64,000 bases of DNA, taken from positions 16,500 through 80,499 of the IMG/VR virus record IMGVR_UViG_3300037119_005106; one strand, written 5' to 3'. This stretch comes from a virus. The notes under the pieces were generated by a model. It worked only from the letters and a program-made list of their open reading frames with translations, was not told the DNA's origin and ran no database searches. Position 1 is the first letter of the stretch, and the number at the start of each line of letters is the position of its first letter. The position numbers were made by a program, and so were the translations under genes. Below, one piece after another: positions 26,479-39,055 of this stretch.

Positions 26479-28026
26479 TTATTGGTTGTGTGTTTCCACG
26501 ATTAGACATTCGGTTGACAGAACAGTAAGAGCAATACTTACCGCATTAGTAAGTCCATTGATAGAAACACTTATTGGATCCACAATACCTGATTCATAAA
26601 GATTCTCAAACTTTCTTGTTTTGGCATTATATCCTTTTTCGAAAGAAATAGCATTTCCAATTTTAAGTATTTCATCATCATTATGAAATGAGTTCTTTAA
26701 AATTTCAGCAAAAGGTCGACAAATAGATGAATAAAAAATAGTTTGAAAAGGATCAGGATTTCTTATATCTTTTGAAAGCAATACCAAACTCTGACCACCA
26801 CCTATAATCACATTGTCTTTCAATGCAGCTTTACAAGCTTTATAAGCATCTTCCACACGATGCTTCTTTTCCTTGATTTCAATATCACTAGCACCACCAA
26901 CATAGAAAGTAGTAATACCATTTTTCATCTTGTCAATACGCTTGAGCATCGATGTAGAATGATAAGCTGATTTTTCTTCTTTAGAAGCCATTTCCAATAA
27001 GAACAGATATTCATCCAATAACTCTTTTCGAGTTCCTTCAACTTCTCCAAAAACGGTATAACCTTGTTTTACGACAACATTATTGGCTTCTCCAAACTCA
27101 CTATCATATTCATTGAAATTCTGAATAATATCAGCTCCAGTGTATTGAGATAGGTCATTCATGTAATTCATGTACTCATCATTTCTGAATTGGTTTTTAA
27201 TCAAACAGATTTTAATTCCTATACGGTCCATATTGTTGAATTCAACAATACTTTCCACGTCCTTTGAGAAATCTTTGGCAAAAATGATTATAGGCAATGG
27301 ATTTACTTTTGAACCAGTGTCTATCAATCGAATGATTTCTTTTTTATCGGTAAACTCATTGTCATACAAAATAACTTTACATTTATCCGCTTCAAAGTAT
27401 CCTGTTATCGGATTGTTGGCATACTTTCTGTCACAATACCCCATTTCAACAACATATCCTTTGATGATATCCACATAACTTTTACCAGTCATGGTTTCAA
27501 GGATATTGATATAGCCATCTTCTTTGGCGTTGTTAAAAGCTTTTTGGAATAGGTTAGCAATTTCCAAATCATTGTTAGCTGAAGTAAGCGCTACTTTACC
27601 AATTTCTGCTAAAGGAATTTTTACCGAATTCTTTCTAATAGCATTAACGATATATTGCAATTCAGCATTAATAGTTTCTCTGAAAAGATGTTCATTAAAT
27701 CCTGATTTAGAACGAGCTTCCATTCCTAATGCAATTAAGGTGCGACACACAACTGTAGCGCTTGTGGTACCATCACCCGAATCCTCATCGGTTTTACTAG
27801 CCACCTTTTTTACCATCTGAATACCTACGTTAATCACTGGATCGGGATGATTCATTTCCATAGCAACAGTAACACCATCTTTTGTAGCAAAAGGATCTTC
27901 TCCGGCATTCGCTATAATTACAGTTTTACCACTTGGACCAAGTGTGCTTTTAACAGCGTTGTAAAGAAGGTCTACCCCTTCCATCAACTTGTCCTGACTA
28001 TCGTTTAAGTATATCCTTTTTGACAT
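26479..28026 (-). CDS. groEL: Phage-encoded GroEL-type chaperonin
   Basis: 515 residues, slightly shorter than bacterial GroEL. Chaperonin signatures are intact: TLGPSGKTV at 28-36, DGVTVA at 50-55, GDGTTSATV at 84-92 with the ATPase Asp, an IKEKKHRVEDA segment before the second equatorial half, and VIIGGGQSL. There is no Gly-Gly-Met tail. The apical domain is strongly diverged. The family folds proteins in an ATP-driven double ring capped by GroES. The preceding gene encodes a GroES-like domain and overlaps it by 29 bases, so phage capsid folding by a dedicated chaperonin pair is a sensible inference. Confidence 0.9.
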   Translation of the reverse strand: MSKRIYLNDSQDKLMEGVDLLYNAVKSTLGPSGKTVIIANAGEDPFATKDGVTVAMEMNHPDPVINVGIQMVKKVASKTDEDSGDGTTSATVVCRTLIALGMEARSKSGFNEHLFRETINAELQYIVNAIRKNSVKIPLAEIGKVALTSANNDLEIANLFQKAFNNAKEDGYINILETMTGKSYVDIIKGYVVEMGYCDRKYANNPITGYFEADKCKVILYDNEFTDKKEIIRLIDTGSKVNPLPIIIFAKDFSKDVESIVEFNNMDRIGIKICLIKNQFRNDEYMNYMNDLSQYTGADIIQNFNEYDSEFGEANNVVVKQGYTVFGEVEGTRKELLDEYLFLLEMASKEEKSAYHSTSMLKRIDKMKNGITTFYVGGASDIEIKEKKHRVEDAYKACKAALKDNVIIGGGQSLVLLSKDIRNPDPFQTIFYSSICRPFAEILKNSFHNDDEILKIGNAISFEKGYNAKTRKFENLYESGIVDPISVSINGLTNAVSIALTVLSTECLIVETHNQ

Positions 28027-28450
28027 GTTCTGCTTTTAAATGACACTGAATTTCTGCAGTGTTGATTATACAATACGTTTCTCCTTCAAAGCTTTGTTCA
28101 TTGTAGAAACGGTGATTGAACTTTACCAAATCTCCTTTGGCGTATTTCTCATTCCCATTCACTACTTCAAAGAATATGTCCGAAGTATCCTGTGGATCCC
28201 TTTTTTTACTGGTTTCATATTTGACCTTTCTTGTCAAAATATTGCCATTGTCCATTTCCAACAATTCTGCTAGATTCATAATTTTCTTGTCTTTATTTAT
28301 TTCTTTTTTTTTCACTAATCCCATAACTACAATCGAAATGAACATAGTTGCAATTAGGCAACCATAAAAAAAGTCCAAAGGAGTGGTTCTCCTTATCGGA
28401 CTTTCTTTAATAGTTTCTTCAACAATTTCTGGATTGAATAATCTAGCCAT
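27998..28450 (-). CDS. GroES-like co-chaperonin with N-terminal membrane segment
   Basis: 150 residues. Residues about 65-147 follow the GroES beta-barrel pattern: GNILTRKVKYE (like the DRVLVKR strand), a mobile-loop-like DPQDTSDI region, YAKGDLVKFNHRF (like VGDIVIF), and ETYCIINTAEI (like EEYLIMSESDI). Residues about 25-46 form one hydrophobic segment. A second ATG at 28279 follows an A-rich leader and would give a 93-aa protein, the normal GroES length, without the segment. It overlaps GroEL by 29 bases. The GroES assignment is from pattern and context; the two-start idea is inference. Confidence 0.65.
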   Translation of the reverse strand: MARLFNPEIVEETIKESPIRRTTPLDFFYGCLIATMFISIVVMGLVKKKEINKDKKIMNLAELLEMDNGNILTRKVKYETSKKRDPQDTSDIFFEVVNGNEKYAKGDLVKFNHRFYNEQSFEGETYCIINTAEIQCHLKAEHVKKDILKR

Positions 28451-28695
28451 TAAACTACTTGTTTAAAATTTTTTCCAGTCTTGAATTTATTGAACCAATC
28501 TTTGAGAACTACTCCTGGAGCAAAAGCTTCATTAAATTCTTTTGCAGTAACCGGCCAATAATCATAAGAAGCACCTCTTTGAAATTCTACACGAACAACA
28601 GAACTTGGTTTGCCATCAATAGTTTTGTTATGCCATCCAATAGATTTTAGATTGGAACTTTGAACTTCGTGCTGAATATTTATCTCTTTTGCCAT
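28450..28695 (-). CDS. KTSC-domain protein
   Basis: I place the start at 28695 (MAKEINIQ), not at 28797, because this leaves a 2-base gap after the previous gene. 81 residues. The motifs SSNLKSIGWH, VRVEFQRGASYDYWPV and a final Phe-x-Lys-Phe end fit the KTSC domain, a small beta domain common in phages and near lysyl-tRNA synthetase or RNA-metabolism genes. Its function is not known. It shares a base with the GroES-like gene stop/start junction. Confidence 0.7.
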   Translation of the reverse strand: MAKEINIQHEVQSSNLKSIGWHNKTIDGKPSSVVRVEFQRGASYDYWPVTAKEFNEAFAPGVVLKDWFNKFKTGKNFKQVV

Positions 28696-28697
28696 GA

Positions 28698-29159
28698 CTA
28701 ATCTTTTTGAGTTGATACCCCTTTGAACTCCGCAATACGATTGGACAAAACAGAGAAGTATTGTCGCATCACCAACAACTGCATTTTCAATCGGCATCGT
28801 TCTGCAGGTGGAATATTTTCAAAAATTGGATTAGATTCTATAAAGTCATGCAACTTCACAATCTTATCATGCAATTCATTTGCTTCCCAAATAACTCTTT
28901 GCTCATGAGAGAATTCACTTCCAATATCAGCAAGAGTATCAACAGGTTTGATGTAGGCTTCCTCAAATTGCTTCTTAGGACTCCAAGAGATATAACCCGT
29001 ATGATTTACGTGATTTGAAGTATCTCCTTTGTATTCTACCAAATACCCCTCATCTGAACCATTCTCATCAGAAGGCAATTCCCAACCTCTATAAAGATTG
29101 TATTCTTCTCTGGTCATTGGCGTAGCTTCAATCTCTCTTGTTCCGATATACTTTTCCAT
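28698..29159 (-). CDS. crAss001_48-related protein (SWSPK domain plus helical hairpin)
   Basis: Start set at 29159 (MEKYIGTRE). 153 residues in two parts. The first ~75 carry EEYNLYRGW, GYLVEYKGD and GYISWSPKKQFEEAY, a widespread small phage domain. The last ~65 form a two-helix hairpin with the pattern HDKIVKLHDFI ... PPAERCRLKMQLLVM, seen in proteins named crAss001_48-related in crAss-like phages. The function is unknown to me. A short hairpin of this kind also resembles cyclic-nucleotide sponge proteins, and the next gene upstream is an Acb2 candidate. Confidence 0.6.
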   Translation of the reverse strand: MEKYIGTREIEATPMTREEYNLYRGWELPSDENGSDEGYLVEYKGDTSNHVNHTGYISWSPKKQFEEAYIKPVDTLADIGSEFSHEQRVIWEANELHDKIVKLHDFIESNPIFENIPPAERCRLKMQLLVMRQYFSVLSNRIAEFKGVSTQKD

Positions 29160-29436: not shown

Positions 29437-30228
29437 TTATAGTTTGTTCAAAAATTCAAATAATTGCTTGTTCCATCTTGCATCCTCAATAGCATTGTGT
29501 GATTTGGATGGATCTTGTTTTGGATAATCAGTCATTTTTTTAATATAGTCTAATACTTGACTTTGATTTTGCCAAACAGTGTGAGGTAAATATTTATCTG
29601 CTTTATCATCCAAAATCTGCTTCAAATCCTTGCAATACATCGGAAATCCTTTTGGTAAGTCCATCATTTTTCCAAACAACCAACAGAATACTACCCAGTC
29701 ATAATCGGCGTAGTAGGCGTAGAATTCAATTGGATGATTTTGCAAACTTCTTCCAGAATCTAATGTATTCCAAAAATGACAAAACTCTTTAACTTCTTCA
29801 GCAATTTGATTGTTGGTTTTTCCATAGCGAAAAAGCAATCTTTCAAATAATGAGAATCCTGATTCATGTCTTTCCATATCACCCATGAAATTACCAAGAT
29901 TACCATAAACTTCTTTTGATTTATTAGGATAATCCTTTTGATACAATTCCCAGAAGATAGGATACAACACATTCTCACGAAGCCAGTATTCTTTATATCC
30001 TTCTGGACGATGGTTTCTCATATCTCCAGAATACTGCTTCATATCATATCTATTCCAAGCTTCTTTCAAATTAAAGTCTTTGGAAATAGCATAGTATTCT
30101 CGACCATCCTCAGCCACTATACCAATCGATATCAAATCAATTGTCGGTTTGGTTTCTCCAATGGTAAACCCTAAAAAAGTTTTCTTTTGTGGCCCTTCAA
30201 GGAATTCTGTATCTATGAAATAACGCAT
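29437..30228 (-). CDS. DEDD-family 3'-5' exonuclease (RNase AS-like)
   Basis: 263 residues. MRYFIDTEFLEG carries the first Asp-x-Glu (Exo I). Further on, EFYAYYADYDWVVF provides an Exo II-type Asp, and HNAIEDARWN the His-x4-Asp of Exo III. This fits the DEDDh exonuclease superfamily, close in pattern to the RNase AS group that trims 3' ends, including poly(A)-like tails. It may degrade RNA or DNA during takeover or trim tRNA. It overlaps the homing endonuclease gene by 16 bases. Confidence 0.75.
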   Translation of the reverse strand: MRYFIDTEFLEGPQKKTFLGFTIGETKPTIDLISIGIVAEDGREYYAISKDFNLKEAWNRYDMKQYSGDMRNHRPEGYKEYWLRENVLYPIFWELYQKDYPNKSKEVYGNLGNFMGDMERHESGFSLFERLLFRYGKTNNQIAEEVKEFCHFWNTLDSGRSLQNHPIEFYAYYADYDWVVFCWLFGKMMDLPKGFPMYCKDLKQILDDKADKYLPHTVWQNQSQVLDYIKKMTDYPKQDPSKSHNAIEDARWNKQLFEFLNKL

Positions 30229-30971
30229 ATTTTTTCTATTTTATAGTTATATAATTTATTATTTAATCTTATTGCATTTGAAATAGATCCTTGTTTTACT
30301 TTTTCAAAACCTATTTTATTAAAATATTCAACAACTTCTTGATGTGAATGAAATTTTTTTGAAAAATTATCTTTAGATATTTTTATATTATGCTTACCTA
30401 ATCTATTTTCTCTTTTAATTAATTTTTCGGAAAAAGACCACCTAAAACCAAAAGCACTAAACGTAATTCCTAAACAAGATTGTGATATATGAGAAGAACC
30501 ATTTTTTGTTTTTTCTAAAAATTTTAATGCTTCAATAATTGAATTGTGTTTTTGAATCAATTCCCCTTTTTTAGAAAATTGAAATACTTTTTTTGATGTA
30601 TGATGTAATCCACCAACTATAGTTCTTGTCTTTGAATTTTCTGAATGTTTTAATCCTAATAAACTTCCTGCCACTAAACAACTATTATAATCCGTTCCTT
30701 TATTTATAAAAAATTGTTCTGTTACAATACAATCTTCTTTTGAGCATATTGAAATAATTTCAAATTTAAAATTTTCAAATCCATATTTCTTAAATGCTTT
30801 AAACAAAATAGGTTGGTTACACAATTCTTTCTTATAAGCTGAGCAATATTGAAGGTATCTTTGTCTAAAATTAGTACTTGTACTGCCAATATAAATTTTA
30901 TTGTTTATAGTATTTATTATAGAATATACTCCGGTTTTTCTCCAATTAGATTTTTCTACATCAAAATTCAT
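30213..30971 (-). CDS. GIY-YIG homing endonuclease
   Basis: Start chosen at 30971 (MNFDVEKSNW), 21 bases downstream of a TAnnTTTG box; the open frame extends 14 codons further. 252 residues. GVYSIINTINNKIYIGS gives the GIY-YIG signature, followed by the conserved Arg (NFRQRYL). The catalytic Glu is likely in VTEQFFINKG. The C-terminal half has NUMOD1-type DNA-binding segments (VFQFSKKGELIQKHNSI). Very AT-rich compared with neighbours, with its own promoter candidate: a mobile freestanding homing gene. Confidence 0.85.
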   Translation of the reverse strand: MNFDVEKSNWRKTGVYSIINTINNKIYIGSTSTNFRQRYLQYCSAYKKELCNQPILFKAFKKYGFENFKFEIISICSKEDCIVTEQFFINKGTDYNSCLVAGSLLGLKHSENSKTRTIVGGLHHTSKKVFQFSKKGELIQKHNSIIEALKFLEKTKNGSSHISQSCLGITFSAFGFRWSFSEKLIKRENRLGKHNIKISKDNFSKKFHSHQEVVEYFNKIGFEKVKQGSISNAIRLNNKLYNYKIEKICVIS

Positions 30972-30991
30972 AATAAAATATTTTATAGATA

Positions 30992-30999
30992 CAAATGTA
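30992..30999 (-). promoter_or_regulatory. Candidate -7 box (TACATTTG) for the homing endonuclease
   Basis: Minus-strand TACATTTG would start transcription about 14 bases before the ATG at 30971, which favours that start over the longer frame. The flanks are strongly AT-rich. Confidence 0.45.
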
Positions 31000-31035
31000 T
31001 TAATAAATATCAATAAAATATTTCATACCTTCTTT

Positions 31036-35189: not shown

Positions 35190-35543
35190 ATGAATACAGT
35201 AAACTTCATCGGAAACGCAGGACAAGAGCCAACAATCAAAACTCTTGACAATGGTACAATCGTAGCTAAATTCAATGTGGCTACAAAAGAAACGTACACT
35301 GATAAAGAAGGTGCTCCAGTAGAGAAAACTACTTGGCACAGAATTGTAGCCTGGAATAAAGCAGCAGAAGCAATAGCTAAAACGGTTCACAAAGGTAGTT
35401 TCATTCATATCAAAGCTAAAGTAGTTACAAATGAATACGATAAAGTAATCAAGGTGCCTATCTCAGCTAAGAAAACTATTGATCATACCATCAAAGTCAA
35501 AGGCACAGAGTTCCAAGCATTCGAAGTAACAGTGCTTCGTTAA
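35190..35543 (+). CDS. ssb: Single-stranded DNA-binding protein
   Basis: 117 residues, an OB-fold SSB core: MNTVNFIGNAGQEP and DNGTIVAKFNVATKE strands, then KTTWHRIVAWNKAAEAIAKTVHKGSFIHIKAK. The highly acidic C-terminal tail of bacterial SSB is missing (it ends FEVTVLR), so it would not recruit host partners in the same way. It coats ssDNA during replication and recombination. It forms a single-gene unit ended by a hairpin terminator. Confidence 0.9.
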   Translation: MNTVNFIGNAGQEPTIKTLDNGTIVAKFNVATKETYTDKEGAPVEKTTWHRIVAWNKAAEAIAKTVHKGSFIHIKAKVVTNEYDKVIKVPISAKKTIDHTIKVKGTEFQAFEVTVLR

Positions 35544-35561
35544 ACTCCATAAAGAAATAAT

Positions 35562-35591
35562 AATCTCTCGGAACAAATACTCTGAGAGGTT
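35562..35591 (+). terminator. Terminator after ssb
   Basis: Arms AATCTCTCGGA and TCTGAGAGGTT (with G-U pairs) enclose an 8-base loop, followed by TATTATATTTG. The T tract is short. Confidence 0.7.
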
Positions 35592-35593
35592 AT

Positions 35594-35601
35594 TATATTT
35601 G
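35594..35601 (+). promoter_or_regulatory. Candidate -7 box (TATATTTG) overlapping a terminator
   Basis: TATATTTG lies only four bases before the ATG at 35606. If used, the transcript would be leaderless or begin at the start codon. It might instead be part of the terminator's T-rich end. Confidence 0.35.
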
Positions 35602-35605
35602 TATT

Positions 35606-36127
35606 ATGAAAAAGGAAGTAAAACGAATCAATGAAAAAAAGATTATTGATATCAGCCAATATCATAATTCAGAAACAGGAGAACTCCTATCATCAGAAAT
35701 GAAAAAAGGCACATCAATAGTAGTTAATGAAGCTACTTCAAAAGTAACTATTGACTACGAGAACTACGCTACAGTATCCACCAAGGCTATAATGGCATTG
35801 GTAGAGATACTGAATAACTCTGACTTGGCTAATGCATTGAAAATGTCATTTTGTGCTAAAGGGCCATTGAGCTTATTGTACAATGAAAACAATCAATTGC
35901 ATTCCAATAAAACACTACAAGACTATCTAGATATATCCTCTGAATCCACATACTTCATTCTAATCAACAAATTAATTAAAGCAGGTGTATTGTATCAGAT
36001 AAAAGGAAATATCTACGGAGAAGTCCGAAAAGTGTATATGCTTAATCCATTCCTTAGCAAGAAACGTAAAACGTTTGATGAGGAAGTCATTAAAATATTC
36101 AAATCATTCGATCAAAAAGAAAAATAA
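35606..36127 (+). CDS. Winged-helix replication-type protein (RepL/initiator-like)
   Basis: 173 residues. Residues about 50-155 show a winged-helix pattern: helices STKAIMALVEIL and LQDYLDISSESTYF with recognition helix ILINKLIKAGVLYQI, then a wing and YMLNPFLSKKRKTF. This end resembles plasmid replication initiators of Bacteroidota. It could bind origin DNA or act as a regulator. It comes directly after ssb and before a helicase-methylase, supporting a replication role. The initiator reading is inference. Confidence 0.5.
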   Translation: MKKEVKRINEKKIIDISQYHNSETGELLSSEMKKGTSIVVNEATSKVTIDYENYATVSTKAIMALVEILNNSDLANALKMSFCAKGPLSLLYNENNQLHSNKTLQDYLDISSESTYFILINKLIKAGVLYQIKGNIYGEVRKVYMLNPFLSKKRKTFDEEVIKIFKSFDQKEK

Positions 36128-36492
36128 TGGAACTATGTACCGCCTGTAAAACATATCAAGCAATTAAAGGACATCATCATTGCGAAAGCTGTAAAGGATT
36201 ATTTGAACACTCAATAATACCAGGCATCAAAAAGAAAATTATTTACATCAAATTCCGAGGTATAGATGATTGGCATAGAGCTGTATTTAAAGATATAAAT
36301 TCAGCAACTTATTATGGTGATTGTGATGCTAATAAAACTGGTAAGCCGGAAGATGTTATTGAATATTACAGAAATAATATCAATAAGCTAGAATACTTTG
36401 GAAACAGCTTTAACTGTGAACCCAATGGAGGATTGAATCCTAATCATCAACTTGAAATACTAACAACCAATGAGAATATCAATTCAAAATAA
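36127..36492 (+). CDS. Zinc-binding hypothetical protein, 121 aa
   Basis: Two CxxC pairs in the first 25 residues (CTAC and CESC, with His residues between) form a zinc-ribbon-like N-terminus. The remainder is mixed, including WHRAVFKDINSATYYGD, a small strand-turn element. It shares its first base with the preceding gene's stop and overlaps the helicase gene by 23 bases. Confidence 0.55.
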   Translation: MELCTACKTYQAIKGHHHCESCKGLFEHSIIPGIKKKIIYIKFRGIDDWHRAVFKDINSATYYGDCDANKTGKPEDVIEYYRNNINKLEYFGNSFNCEPNGGLNPNHQLEILTTNENINSK

Positions 36493-39055
36493 ATCAGGAC
36501 CAGCTGGCGAACAAGCACTAATGGAATTTGATTGTGAAGATACTATTACTCAAGAAGAAAATAGTAACGAATTCTTATACGCTGATATCGACAACATTCG
36601 TAAAATGTTACCTATACTTTATCCTGGACAACACGACAACATACTCTTCGCAGAACAAAGATTTCTAGAAGGTAAAGGAGTAATGTTTACTGACGGGACT
36701 GGAACGGGAAAAACTTTTACAGGATGTGGAATCATTTATAGATTCTTTTATCAAGATAAAAGAAATATCCTCATCATCGTTCCAACCGATCAGAAATGTA
36801 TTGATTGGATAGAAGAAGCACAAAAGTTAGATTTAAGCATGTACCAATTAATAGGCATTCAAGATGCTGGACATGATATAACCGTAACCACTTATGCTAA
36901 CTTTTATCAAAACAATGCATTAAACAAACGCGCTTGGGATTTAGTAATCTACGATGAATCCCACTACCTCTGCCAAAACCAACAAGGAATACAGACTAGC
37001 TATTTTGAACAACACAAAAGCATAGTCAATCTACCATCATCAGCAAGGGATAAAGCCAAGGAGCTTAACAAATTCCTAAAACCTGAATGGGACGGAAGCA
37101 GAGAATATTATCAAAAGCTAGAGCATTACGAAGATGCTATTCATAGAGCAGTAGAGAAACTAGTTCTAAGAACAAAGGTTGTATTCCTATCAGCAACGCC
37201 ATTTGCTTATCATAAATCGATTAAATATGCAGATGGCACACTAATAGACATCGAAGAACAAATCGTTGTTAGAAACAAAGCTACAGGCGCTTACAATGAA
37301 GCACCACCATTCGGAGATTTTCTAATAGAGAATTTCGGTTACCAAATGAAATATAACAAGGTCACTATCCCAGAAAGCGGAGTGGATGTTAATCTTATGG
37401 AACGCGAATTCTTTGAGAAGATGAAGAAGAATGGTATTATCAGCACACGTATGCTTGAACTAAAGCACGATTATTCAAGAGATTTTGTAACCATAGATTC
37501 AGAAATTGGAGATAGAATCAACGAAGGAATGGAATTATTCTATGAAGAATCATTCAAGAAAACATTCCCAACACTAGCAGAAAAGTTTAGTAAAAAATAC
37601 AATTACATGTATGTAAACCAACTGCTAGAATGTATCAAAGCCAAAGAGATTCATACTCGTATTCAACAGCATTTAGATTTAGGCAGAAAGGTAGTTATCT
37701 TTCACAGCTACAATCATGCTGCAGTAGAGCATCCCTTTCATTTTGATCCATACAAATTGATTGAAGCCAAGCAAGAATACATTCTTCCAAGATTGGAACG
37801 AGAAATAAAACTATTTGAGAAACTATATCCGGAGTATTACAATCTGGATTTATCTCATCTAGAAAATACTCGTGATGCTATACTTCGACACTTTCCTGAA
37901 ACCAAACAATTCAATGGTACCATTAGCAAAAAACTAAGAAGTCAATATCTTAAAGATTTCAACAGCGATCATGGTAATACCAATATTTTGTTGGTTCAAC
38001 AAAAAGCGGGTAAAGAAGGTATCAGTTTGCATGATAGAACTGGAAACTTCCAAAGAGTTCTTATGCAATTAGGACTACCAACAGAACCTACTTCTTGTAT
38101 TCAAATCGAAGGCAGAACGTACAGGGATGGAGTTAAGAGCAATGCTCCTTATGAATACATGACTCTTCAAACCACCTTTGAACGTATTGCTTTTGGTACA
38201 AAAATAGCGGAGCGTTCCCGAACAGCCGAGAATCTAGCAATGGGAAATCTAGCTAGAGATTTAGAAACTTCATTCAAAGAAGGATATCTAAACTCTAGTT
38301 ACAAACCACCATCAATAGAACAAGGAATAGGCGGTAAGCAAATGGATAAATTCAATAACAATACTACCAAGTTTGACAAAGCCATTTCATACTACTTCTC
38401 CAGAGCCAAAAGGAATTCTAAAAACAAAGCTAAAGAAGGTGGCGATTACTACGCTACTCCCGAACCGTTAGGGTTAAAAATGGTAGAGTGGTTAAACCCA
38501 CAACCTGACGAGAATGGATTAGAACCAAGTGCTGGACATGGTGCAATAGCAAGATGGTTCCCAGGCTTTACCAACAATCATTTTGTTGAAGAGAATATCA
38601 ATCTAACTGGAGAACTCTGTATCAATTCCATTGGACAAGTTCGTATAGGTAAGTTCGAAGACCATAGCAGTATTAACAAATACAATTTCATAGCGATGAA
38701 TCCACCATTTGGAACATCAGGAAAAACAGCTATGGAACATTTGCAAAAAGCATTAGTAAGACATAGTGATCGATACGACACAAGGCTAATAGCAATTATA
38801 CCCGCTGGACCATCAATGGATAAACGATTGGAAATGTTTCTCAACTCGGAGAAAGGAAAAGACTTTTATGTGAGAACACAAATAAGACTTCCATCATGTA
38901 CTTTCGAAAGAGCCGGAACATCGGTATCAACTAAGATTTTAGAAATCAGAAAAATGAGTTATATTAATAATCGACCTCAAACGAACTATATAGACTTGTC
39001 TTATATTCAAACCATTAAGGACTTTTTCGAGGAAATCAGAGATTTAAAAATATAA
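36470..39055 (+). CDS. Helicase-DNA methyltransferase fusion (DarB-like)
   Basis: 861 residues in two parts. The N-terminal SF2 helicase carries Walker A GTGTGKT (76-82), DESH (162-165), SATPF (241-245) and a C-terminal lobe with QQKAGKEGISLHD and IEGRTYRDG (motif VI). From ~650, an N6-adenine methyltransferase fold has motif I (EPSAGHGA, ~685-692) and motif IV NPPFG (744-748). Such fusions occur in phage anti-restriction proteins like P1 DarB and in polyvalent phage proteins. It may protect phage DNA by methylation or remodel it. The domain calls are firm; the biological role is inferred. Confidence 0.85.
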   Translation: MRISIQNKSGPAGEQALMEFDCEDTITQEENSNEFLYADIDNIRKMLPILYPGQHDNILFAEQRFLEGKGVMFTDGTGTGKTFTGCGIIYRFFYQDKRNILIIVPTDQKCIDWIEEAQKLDLSMYQLIGIQDAGHDITVTTYANFYQNNALNKRAWDLVIYDESHYLCQNQQGIQTSYFEQHKSIVNLPSSARDKAKELNKFLKPEWDGSREYYQKLEHYEDAIHRAVEKLVLRTKVVFLSATPFAYHKSIKYADGTLIDIEEQIVVRNKATGAYNEAPPFGDFLIENFGYQMKYNKVTIPESGVDVNLMEREFFEKMKKNGIISTRMLELKHDYSRDFVTIDSEIGDRINEGMELFYEESFKKTFPTLAEKFSKKYNYMYVNQLLECIKAKEIHTRIQQHLDLGRKVVIFHSYNHAAVEHPFHFDPYKLIEAKQEYILPRLEREIKLFEKLYPEYYNLDLSHLENTRDAILRHFPETKQFNGTISKKLRSQYLKDFNSDHGNTNILLVQQKAGKEGISLHDRTGNFQRVLMQLGLPTEPTSCIQIEGRTYRDGVKSNAPYEYMTLQTTFERIAFGTKIAERSRTAENLAMGNLARDLETSFKEGYLNSSYKPPSIEQGIGGKQMDKFNNNTTKFDKAISYYFSRAKRNSKNKAKEGGDYYATPEPLGLKMVEWLNPQPDENGLEPSAGHGAIARWFPGFTNNHFVEENINLTGELCINSIGQVRIGKFEDHSSINKYNFIAMNPPFGTSGKTAMEHLQKALVRHSDRYDTRLIAIIPAGPSMDKRLEMFLNSEKGKDFYVRTQIRLPSCTFERAGTSVSTKILEIRKMSYINNRPQTNYIDLSYIQTIKDFFEEIRDLKI

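Follow-up and report, generated by a model that had tools for sequence, protein, structure and literature searches.

A 64-kb stretch of viral DNA (hereinafter the window), which is part of an 80.5-kb virus record, encodes a 150-aa protein that combines a predicted N-terminal transmembrane (TM) segment with a domain predicted to adopt the fold of GroES, the textbook soluble lid. The gene for this protein overlaps that of a full-length phage GroEL, and the two sides of the expected lid-cage contact, namely the mobile-loop equivalent of the 150-aa protein and the apical groove of the GroEL, appear to have changed together. We lean, if only slightly, to the view that the two proteins are a co-diverged phage chaperonin pair, in which a membrane-tethered and possibly also soluble GroES-fold cap would act with the phage's own GroEL. 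The combined changes in loop and groove are a more telling feature than the anchor and the alternative start that were emphasized in a preliminary description of this locus.

The features discussed below are the following (window positions; relatives L001 and L008 are described in the next section):

26479-28026, minus strand: phage GroEL, 515 aa, candidate partner (PF00118, E 1.2e-44; phrog_5725; aligned with E. coli GroEL and with controls)
27998-28026, minus strand: overlap of 29 nt between the groES-like gene and groEL, of the same length in L001 and L008
27998-28450, minus strand: predicted GroES-fold protein with an N-terminal TM anchor, full-length 150 aa (ORF; same architecture in L001 and L008; predicted fold)
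28028-28261, minus strand: predicted GroES-fold domain, residues ~64-141 (AlphaFold strands, Foldseek and VIA matches; profile match at residues 102-141)
28172-28222, minus strand: GroES mobile-loop equivalent, residues 77-93 (KYETSKKRDPQDTSDIF), flanked by model strands 70-75 and 94-98 and lacking the hydrophobic triad
28277-28279, minus strand: internal ATG (M58), from which a soluble form of 93 aa may be translated (start-context score 5.53)
28280-28301, minus strand: A-rich leader before M58 (AATAAATAAAGACAAGAAAATT), matching the phage's own start motif
28313-28369, minus strand: predicted TM segment, residues 28-46 (FYGCLIATMFISIVVMGLV) (hydropathy 2.31; within helix 24-63 of the model)
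28450-28797, likely start 28695, minus strand: KTSC-like gene upstream of the 150-aa gene (sequence; sub-threshold PF13619)

Genomic context and relatives of the GroES-like gene

The virus is probably a distant crAss-like phage because the best matches of its terminase are Crassvirales-type ('cr') phage terminases (24-27% identity) and because a gene neighboring the locus of the 150-aa ORF contains a crAss001_48 domain. The gene order on the minus strand is as follows: the crAss001_48-like gene, the KTSC-like gene, the 150-aa ORF, groEL, four small genes, terminase and portal. The 150-aa ORF, which begins with ATG, is real; the stop codon of the KTSC-like gene overlaps this ATG (TAATG), and at its other end the ORF runs 29 nt into groEL, which starts at position 28026. 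The identity of the overlapping gene as a full-length phage groEL, noted in the preliminary description, is supported by the PF00118 match, and the ATPase aspartates D52, D87 and D398 (E. coli numbering) are intact.

Scans of viral contigs identified two relatives of the 150-aa protein, in L001 (59% identical) and L008 (42%), whereas sequence searches of 50,697 phage records, of plasmids and of species genomes detected no relatives. Both genes (L001:810-1259 and L008:3583-4029) have the same architecture as the window gene, with an MA[KR]xF start, a TM segment, a charged stalk, a GroES-like domain and the groEL overlap, all in one frame in each case. Divergence is much greater in the N-terminal 57 residues than in the domain (pN/pS of 0.58 and 0.23, respectively, for the window against L001); with synonymous sites near saturation, these values support only a stronger constraint on the GroES domain than on the N-terminus. 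In each of the three genomes, the GroES-like gene is immediately preceded by a small KTSC-like gene (L001:547-810 and L008:3317-3580 in the relatives).

The 80-kb record contains no second GroES that scores above the Pfam cut-off. A sub-threshold Pfam Cpn10 match at window positions 35597-35800 was considered and judged to be due to chance; it falls in a 173-aa ORF (35606-36127) for which Cpn10 scores no better than FMN_bind, both below the cut-off. This ORF follows an SSB gene (PF00436) on the plus strand (35190-36127 for the two together) and, by eye, could encode a replication-initiator-like winged-helix protein.

Predicted fold of the 150-aa protein

None of the curated family models recognizes the 150-aa protein: hmmscan against Pfam and NCBIfam yielded no match for the window, L001 or L008 proteins, and a PDB sequence search with a profile of this family gave no match either. 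In a six-frame search, Pfam Cpn10 matched the L008 relative at the same C-terminal location as the weak matches described next (E 0.001, 13.5 bits compared with the cut-off of 21.1). The C-terminal GD.V ... I strand signature of GroES is present at residues ~102-141, a stretch that is weakly matched by a local GroES HMM and also, with hhalign, by phage GroES (E 0.0012; 1.5e-4 when more sequences were included, which is still a weak match).

The AlphaFold model, which was built from an alignment of three sequences and has a mean pLDDT of 69, consists of a long helix (residues 24-63) and six strands (residues 70-75, 94-98, 108-111, 118-121, 124-130 and 134-138). A Foldseek search of the PDB with this model returned GroES/Cpn10 structures at all ranks from 1 to 21 (best E 2.8e-3, probability 1.00, with all E-values above 1e-3), and the top named matches in BFVD are phage GroES proteins. 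VIA-align superimposed the model on M. tuberculosis Cpn10 (1p3h) with a Z-score of 7.2 and 1.7 A over 62 residues, a Z-score below 8 being a value that can reflect a common arrangement. For residues ~64-140 the prediction gives a GroES fold, in line with the preliminary description. The claim made there that the C-terminal ~85 residues follow the GroES pattern accordingly holds for the predicted fold and, weakly, for the profile match at residues ~102-141, but not for the mobile loop, the signature of which is missing.

The predicted fold and the gene position, taken together, make it likely that the 150-aa protein is of the GroES type. With respect to the Cpn10 family (PF00166), the protein has the predicted beta-barrel fold and the location next to groEL, whereas its score stays below the family cut-off; Cpn10 is a soluble protein of ~10 kDa, and here the full-length product has a predicted TM and a 93-aa form from M58 is possible. 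Because the mobile-loop triad is absent and the family score is not reached, we do not assign the protein to Cpn10 and instead describe it as a protein of the GroES fold with a probable co-chaperonin-like function.

The predicted membrane anchor

As proposed in the preliminary description, the first start of the gene adds an apparent TM segment. The maximum 19-residue Kyte-Doolittle mean is 2.31 (residues 28-46), a value that was reached in 51 of 20,000 composition shuffles, and an in-frame hydrophobic segment is present at the same place in L001 (3.47) and L008 (2.08). The hydrophobicity is kept while the N-terminal sequence diverges, which fits the expectation for an anchor. Given that lysine and arginine are more numerous on the C-terminal side of the segment, the charge bias suggests an N-out/C-in topology, with the GroES domain on the cytoplasmic side.

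A membrane-tethered lid was not found in the other phages or the papers searched. None of 80 control phage GroES proteins has an N-terminal TM (the highest hydropathy of any N-terminal extension is 0.38), these controls having been picked by a canonical GroES motif that would miss diverged GroES. No TM-anchored GroES candidate is present in 21 other phage groEL neighborhoods, and the open-access literature searched yielded no report of a GroES with a membrane anchor.

The mobile loop and the GroEL groove

The mobile-loop equivalent (residues 77-93) is polar in the window protein and in both relatives, without the IVL-type hydrophobic GroEL-binding triad, and belongs to the most conserved stretches of the protein among the three sequences; the confidence of the model is lowest at residues 84-89. 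The groove positions of GroEL were assigned by alignment to the E. coli GroEL sequence, with the numbering checked on D87. The apical groove of the window GroEL carries the changes S201D, Y203K, L259E and V263E. Positions 203, 259 and 263 are occupied by K, E and E in the window, by R, L and D in L001, and by S, K and E in L008; over the three GroELs, the changes are V263E/D, Y203K/R/S and S201D/E, position 259 is changed in two, and the helix-H positions 234 and 237 are still hydrophobic. By comparison, all 17 control GroELs encoded beside a canonical GroES keep S201, Y/F203, L259 and V263.

The groove is also altered in phages EL, Miami and pTD1, none of which has a GroES recognized nearby, and it varies in other phages where a nearby GroES is absent or only weakly matching. 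Hence, a change in the groove may mean a new contact or none. In all three genomes, loop and groove are changed together, and such a change on both sides of the contact fits a co-diverged pair and also a loss of capping.

Comparison with known GroES-GroEL systems

The 150-aa protein resembles bacterial GroES/Cpn10 (PF00166), the partner of GroEL, in its predicted fold, in the location of its gene upstream of and beside groEL, and in the size of the domain when counted from M58 (93 aa). It differs from bacterial GroES in the N-terminal TM, the lack of the IVL-type triad and a roof hairpin that is very short or absent; compared to the bacterial pair, moreover, the protein is missed by curated models and the groove of its candidate partner is charged. 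T4 gp31 is likewise a phage-encoded protein with the GroES fold and little sequence likeness to GroES (VIA Z-scores of 5.4-5.8 against our model, again below 8). The T4 protein is soluble and works with the host GroEL, whereas in the present case a GroEL is encoded by the phage itself and the 150-aa protein contains a predicted TM.

In Bacteroides phage DAC19, Flavobacterium phage immuto and phage Calle_3, a co-chaperonin gene is similarly close to a phage groEL, but unlike the 150-aa protein, these GroES proteins are soluble and recognized by GroES profiles; in contrast to the window pair, DAC19 and immuto also have a GIIIPD or SIIIPD loop and a hydrophobic GroEL groove. In the Flavobacterium elemo phages (L098:2471-4284), the order is reversed, with groEL followed by groES, and the groove residues at 201 and 203 are altered (F and G).

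Cellulophaga phage phi14:2 is crAss-like as well, with groEL upstream of the terminase, and encodes a 129-aa GroES-like protein (BFVD S0A2F3) that matches our model structurally. The phi14:2 protein is, however, encoded apart from groEL and shows no TM-like segment by eye, and the phi14:2 groove is largely canonical. BFVD S0A2F3 probably corresponds to phi14:2 g096 (L003:7767-8156, a 129-aa 'hypothetical protein'), a correspondence made by length only, and g096, which lies four kb from groEL, may be a crAss-like phage GroES that has escaped annotation. The gene that adjoins groEL in phi14:2, g106, was also considered and gave no such match. The chaperonin of Pseudomonas phage EL is another group-I-like protein with an altered apical groove; unlike the window groEL, it has no GroES recognized nearby, and it has been reported not to interact with E. 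coli GroES (PMC7185714).

The putative internal start

The preliminary description pointed to an internal ATG at position 28279, after an A-rich leader, as an alternative start for a soluble GroES. The ATG and the leader are there, and a start-context model trained on 52 other window genes (A-rich at -15 to -7, A at -3, T at -2/-1) scores M58 at 5.5 and M1 at 3.2, with M58 exceeding 85% of the true starts and every one of the 302 other in-frame ATGs inside the window genes. The equivalent ATG of L001 (M57) scores 7.5, above 92% of the starts and higher than any of the 302 internal ATGs, and that of L008 scores 0.2, which is reached by 18 of the 302. MAFFT aligns an ATG at the place of M58 in all three sequences and puts an insertion of four residues behind it in L008, such that the register of the L008 ATG depends on where this gap is placed. 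RNA folding around the two starts (-6.8 and -5.9 kcal/mol) does not separate M1 from M58. Because the stalk is rich in lysine and asparagine, the protein sequence itself accounts for part of the internal-start signal: when the stalk is recoded with the phage codon usage, the observed start score is reached in 20% (window), 1.6% (L001) and 11% (L008) of the trials. On the start scores, discounted by these recoding results, dual initiation is plausible in the window and L001; the proposal of a soluble start is thus backed by a strong sequence signal in these two genomes and only a moderate one in L008.

The chance that the gene makes a single, membrane-anchored product falls just short of even; the internal ATG would then be a by-product of the Lys/Asn-rich membrane-proximal stalk, and capping would still be compatible with such a product. 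The ordinary start context of M1, its stop-start overlap with the upstream gene, the recovery of the window score in 20% of the recoding trials and the unremarkable L008 ATG all agree with a single product, whereas the superiority of M58 and of L001 M57 over every other internal ATG and most true starts, the rarity with which recoding attains the L001 score and the alignment of an ATG here in all three sequences speak for a second start. Another possibility considered is that two genes, one for a small TM protein and one for a GroES, were artificially fused by a homopolymer error, given that the frame traverses a run of nine A (A9) just before the internal start and that the gain or loss of one A in this run would bring the upstream frame to a stop after no more than a few codons. 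In L001 and L008 the run is absent and the same frame is nevertheless open, and for this reason we reject the artefact, which we give next to no credence.

Proposed function and alternatives

In the scenario that we favor, the 150-aa protein would be a GroES-fold co-chaperonin that is tied to the inner membrane by a single N-terminal TM helix, with its domain in the cytoplasm, and is encoded immediately before its partner phage GroEL, the gene of which it overlaps, beside the packaging genes. The classical contact, in which a hydrophobic IVL-type loop sits in a hydrophobic apical groove, would be replaced by one between a polar, partly basic loop and a charged groove. Owing to this altered contact, the cap would serve the GroEL of the phage rather than that of the host. 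Initiation at M58 would probably yield some soluble caps, which would allow mixed or purely soluble rings, and the pair would fold late virion proteins near the membrane with no lid exchange with the host machine. The ORF, the hydrophobic segment, the layout kept in the relatives, the altered loop and groove residues and the strength of the start signals are read from the sequences, and the GroES fold is predicted. Under this scenario, we infer binding to the phage GroEL, ring formation, topology, clients, timing, the use of both starts and a membrane-proximal site for the folding of late virion proteins. The proposal in its most complete form, in which one gene provides both membrane-tethered and soluble GroES-type caps with a re-invented, partly charged GroEL contact, such that the chamber is recruited to the inner membrane without host lid exchange, is a tentative one that we consider rather doubtful.

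The principal alternative, to which we assign a still lower likelihood, is that the GroES-fold membrane protein no longer caps GroEL and functions, for example, as a membrane adaptor or regulator, leaving the phage GroEL to work without a lid, as reported for the phage EL chaperonin with GroES. The loss of the loop triad, the charged groove, the altered grooves of EL, Miami and pTD1 with no GroES recognized nearby and the failure of the EL chaperonin to interact with E. coli GroES (PMC7185714) are all compatible with the loss of capping; the strong conservation of the loop and the locking of the gene to groEL by overlap in three genomes argue against it. It is quite improbable that the protein is unrelated to GroES, that is, a small beta-barrel membrane protein for which the likeness to GroES is a modelling coincidence: although no curated family matches and the model combines a low-depth alignment with moderate confidence, GroES/Cpn10 tops two independent structure libraries (PDB and BFVD), profiles match the C-terminal stretch of GroES, and the gene sits in the groES position beside groEL.

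If the preferred reading of a co-diverged, membrane-tethered pair is correct, a chaperonin cage could be held at a membrane, with possible consequences for how virion or membrane proteins are assembled. The paired loop and groove changes would represent a natural orthogonal GroES-GroEL contact, relevant to the evolution of lid-cage specificity and to chaperonins without host cross-talk. If, instead, capping has been lost, the protein would show the GroES fold in a new role.

Other genes of the window

Two additional observations concern other parts of the window. An ORF on the minus strand amid the late genes (30213-31013; first listed start TTG) contains a GIY-YIG endonuclease domain (PF01541, E 4.4e-8) and is probably a homing endonuclease. 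On the plus strand, positions 36470-39055 encode an 861-aa protein that consists of a helicase part (ResIII/Helicase_C) and a C-terminal part matching phage DNA methyltransferases; this helicase/methyltransferase-like protein matches the central part of very large phage proteins (phrog_10691, 3925 positions).
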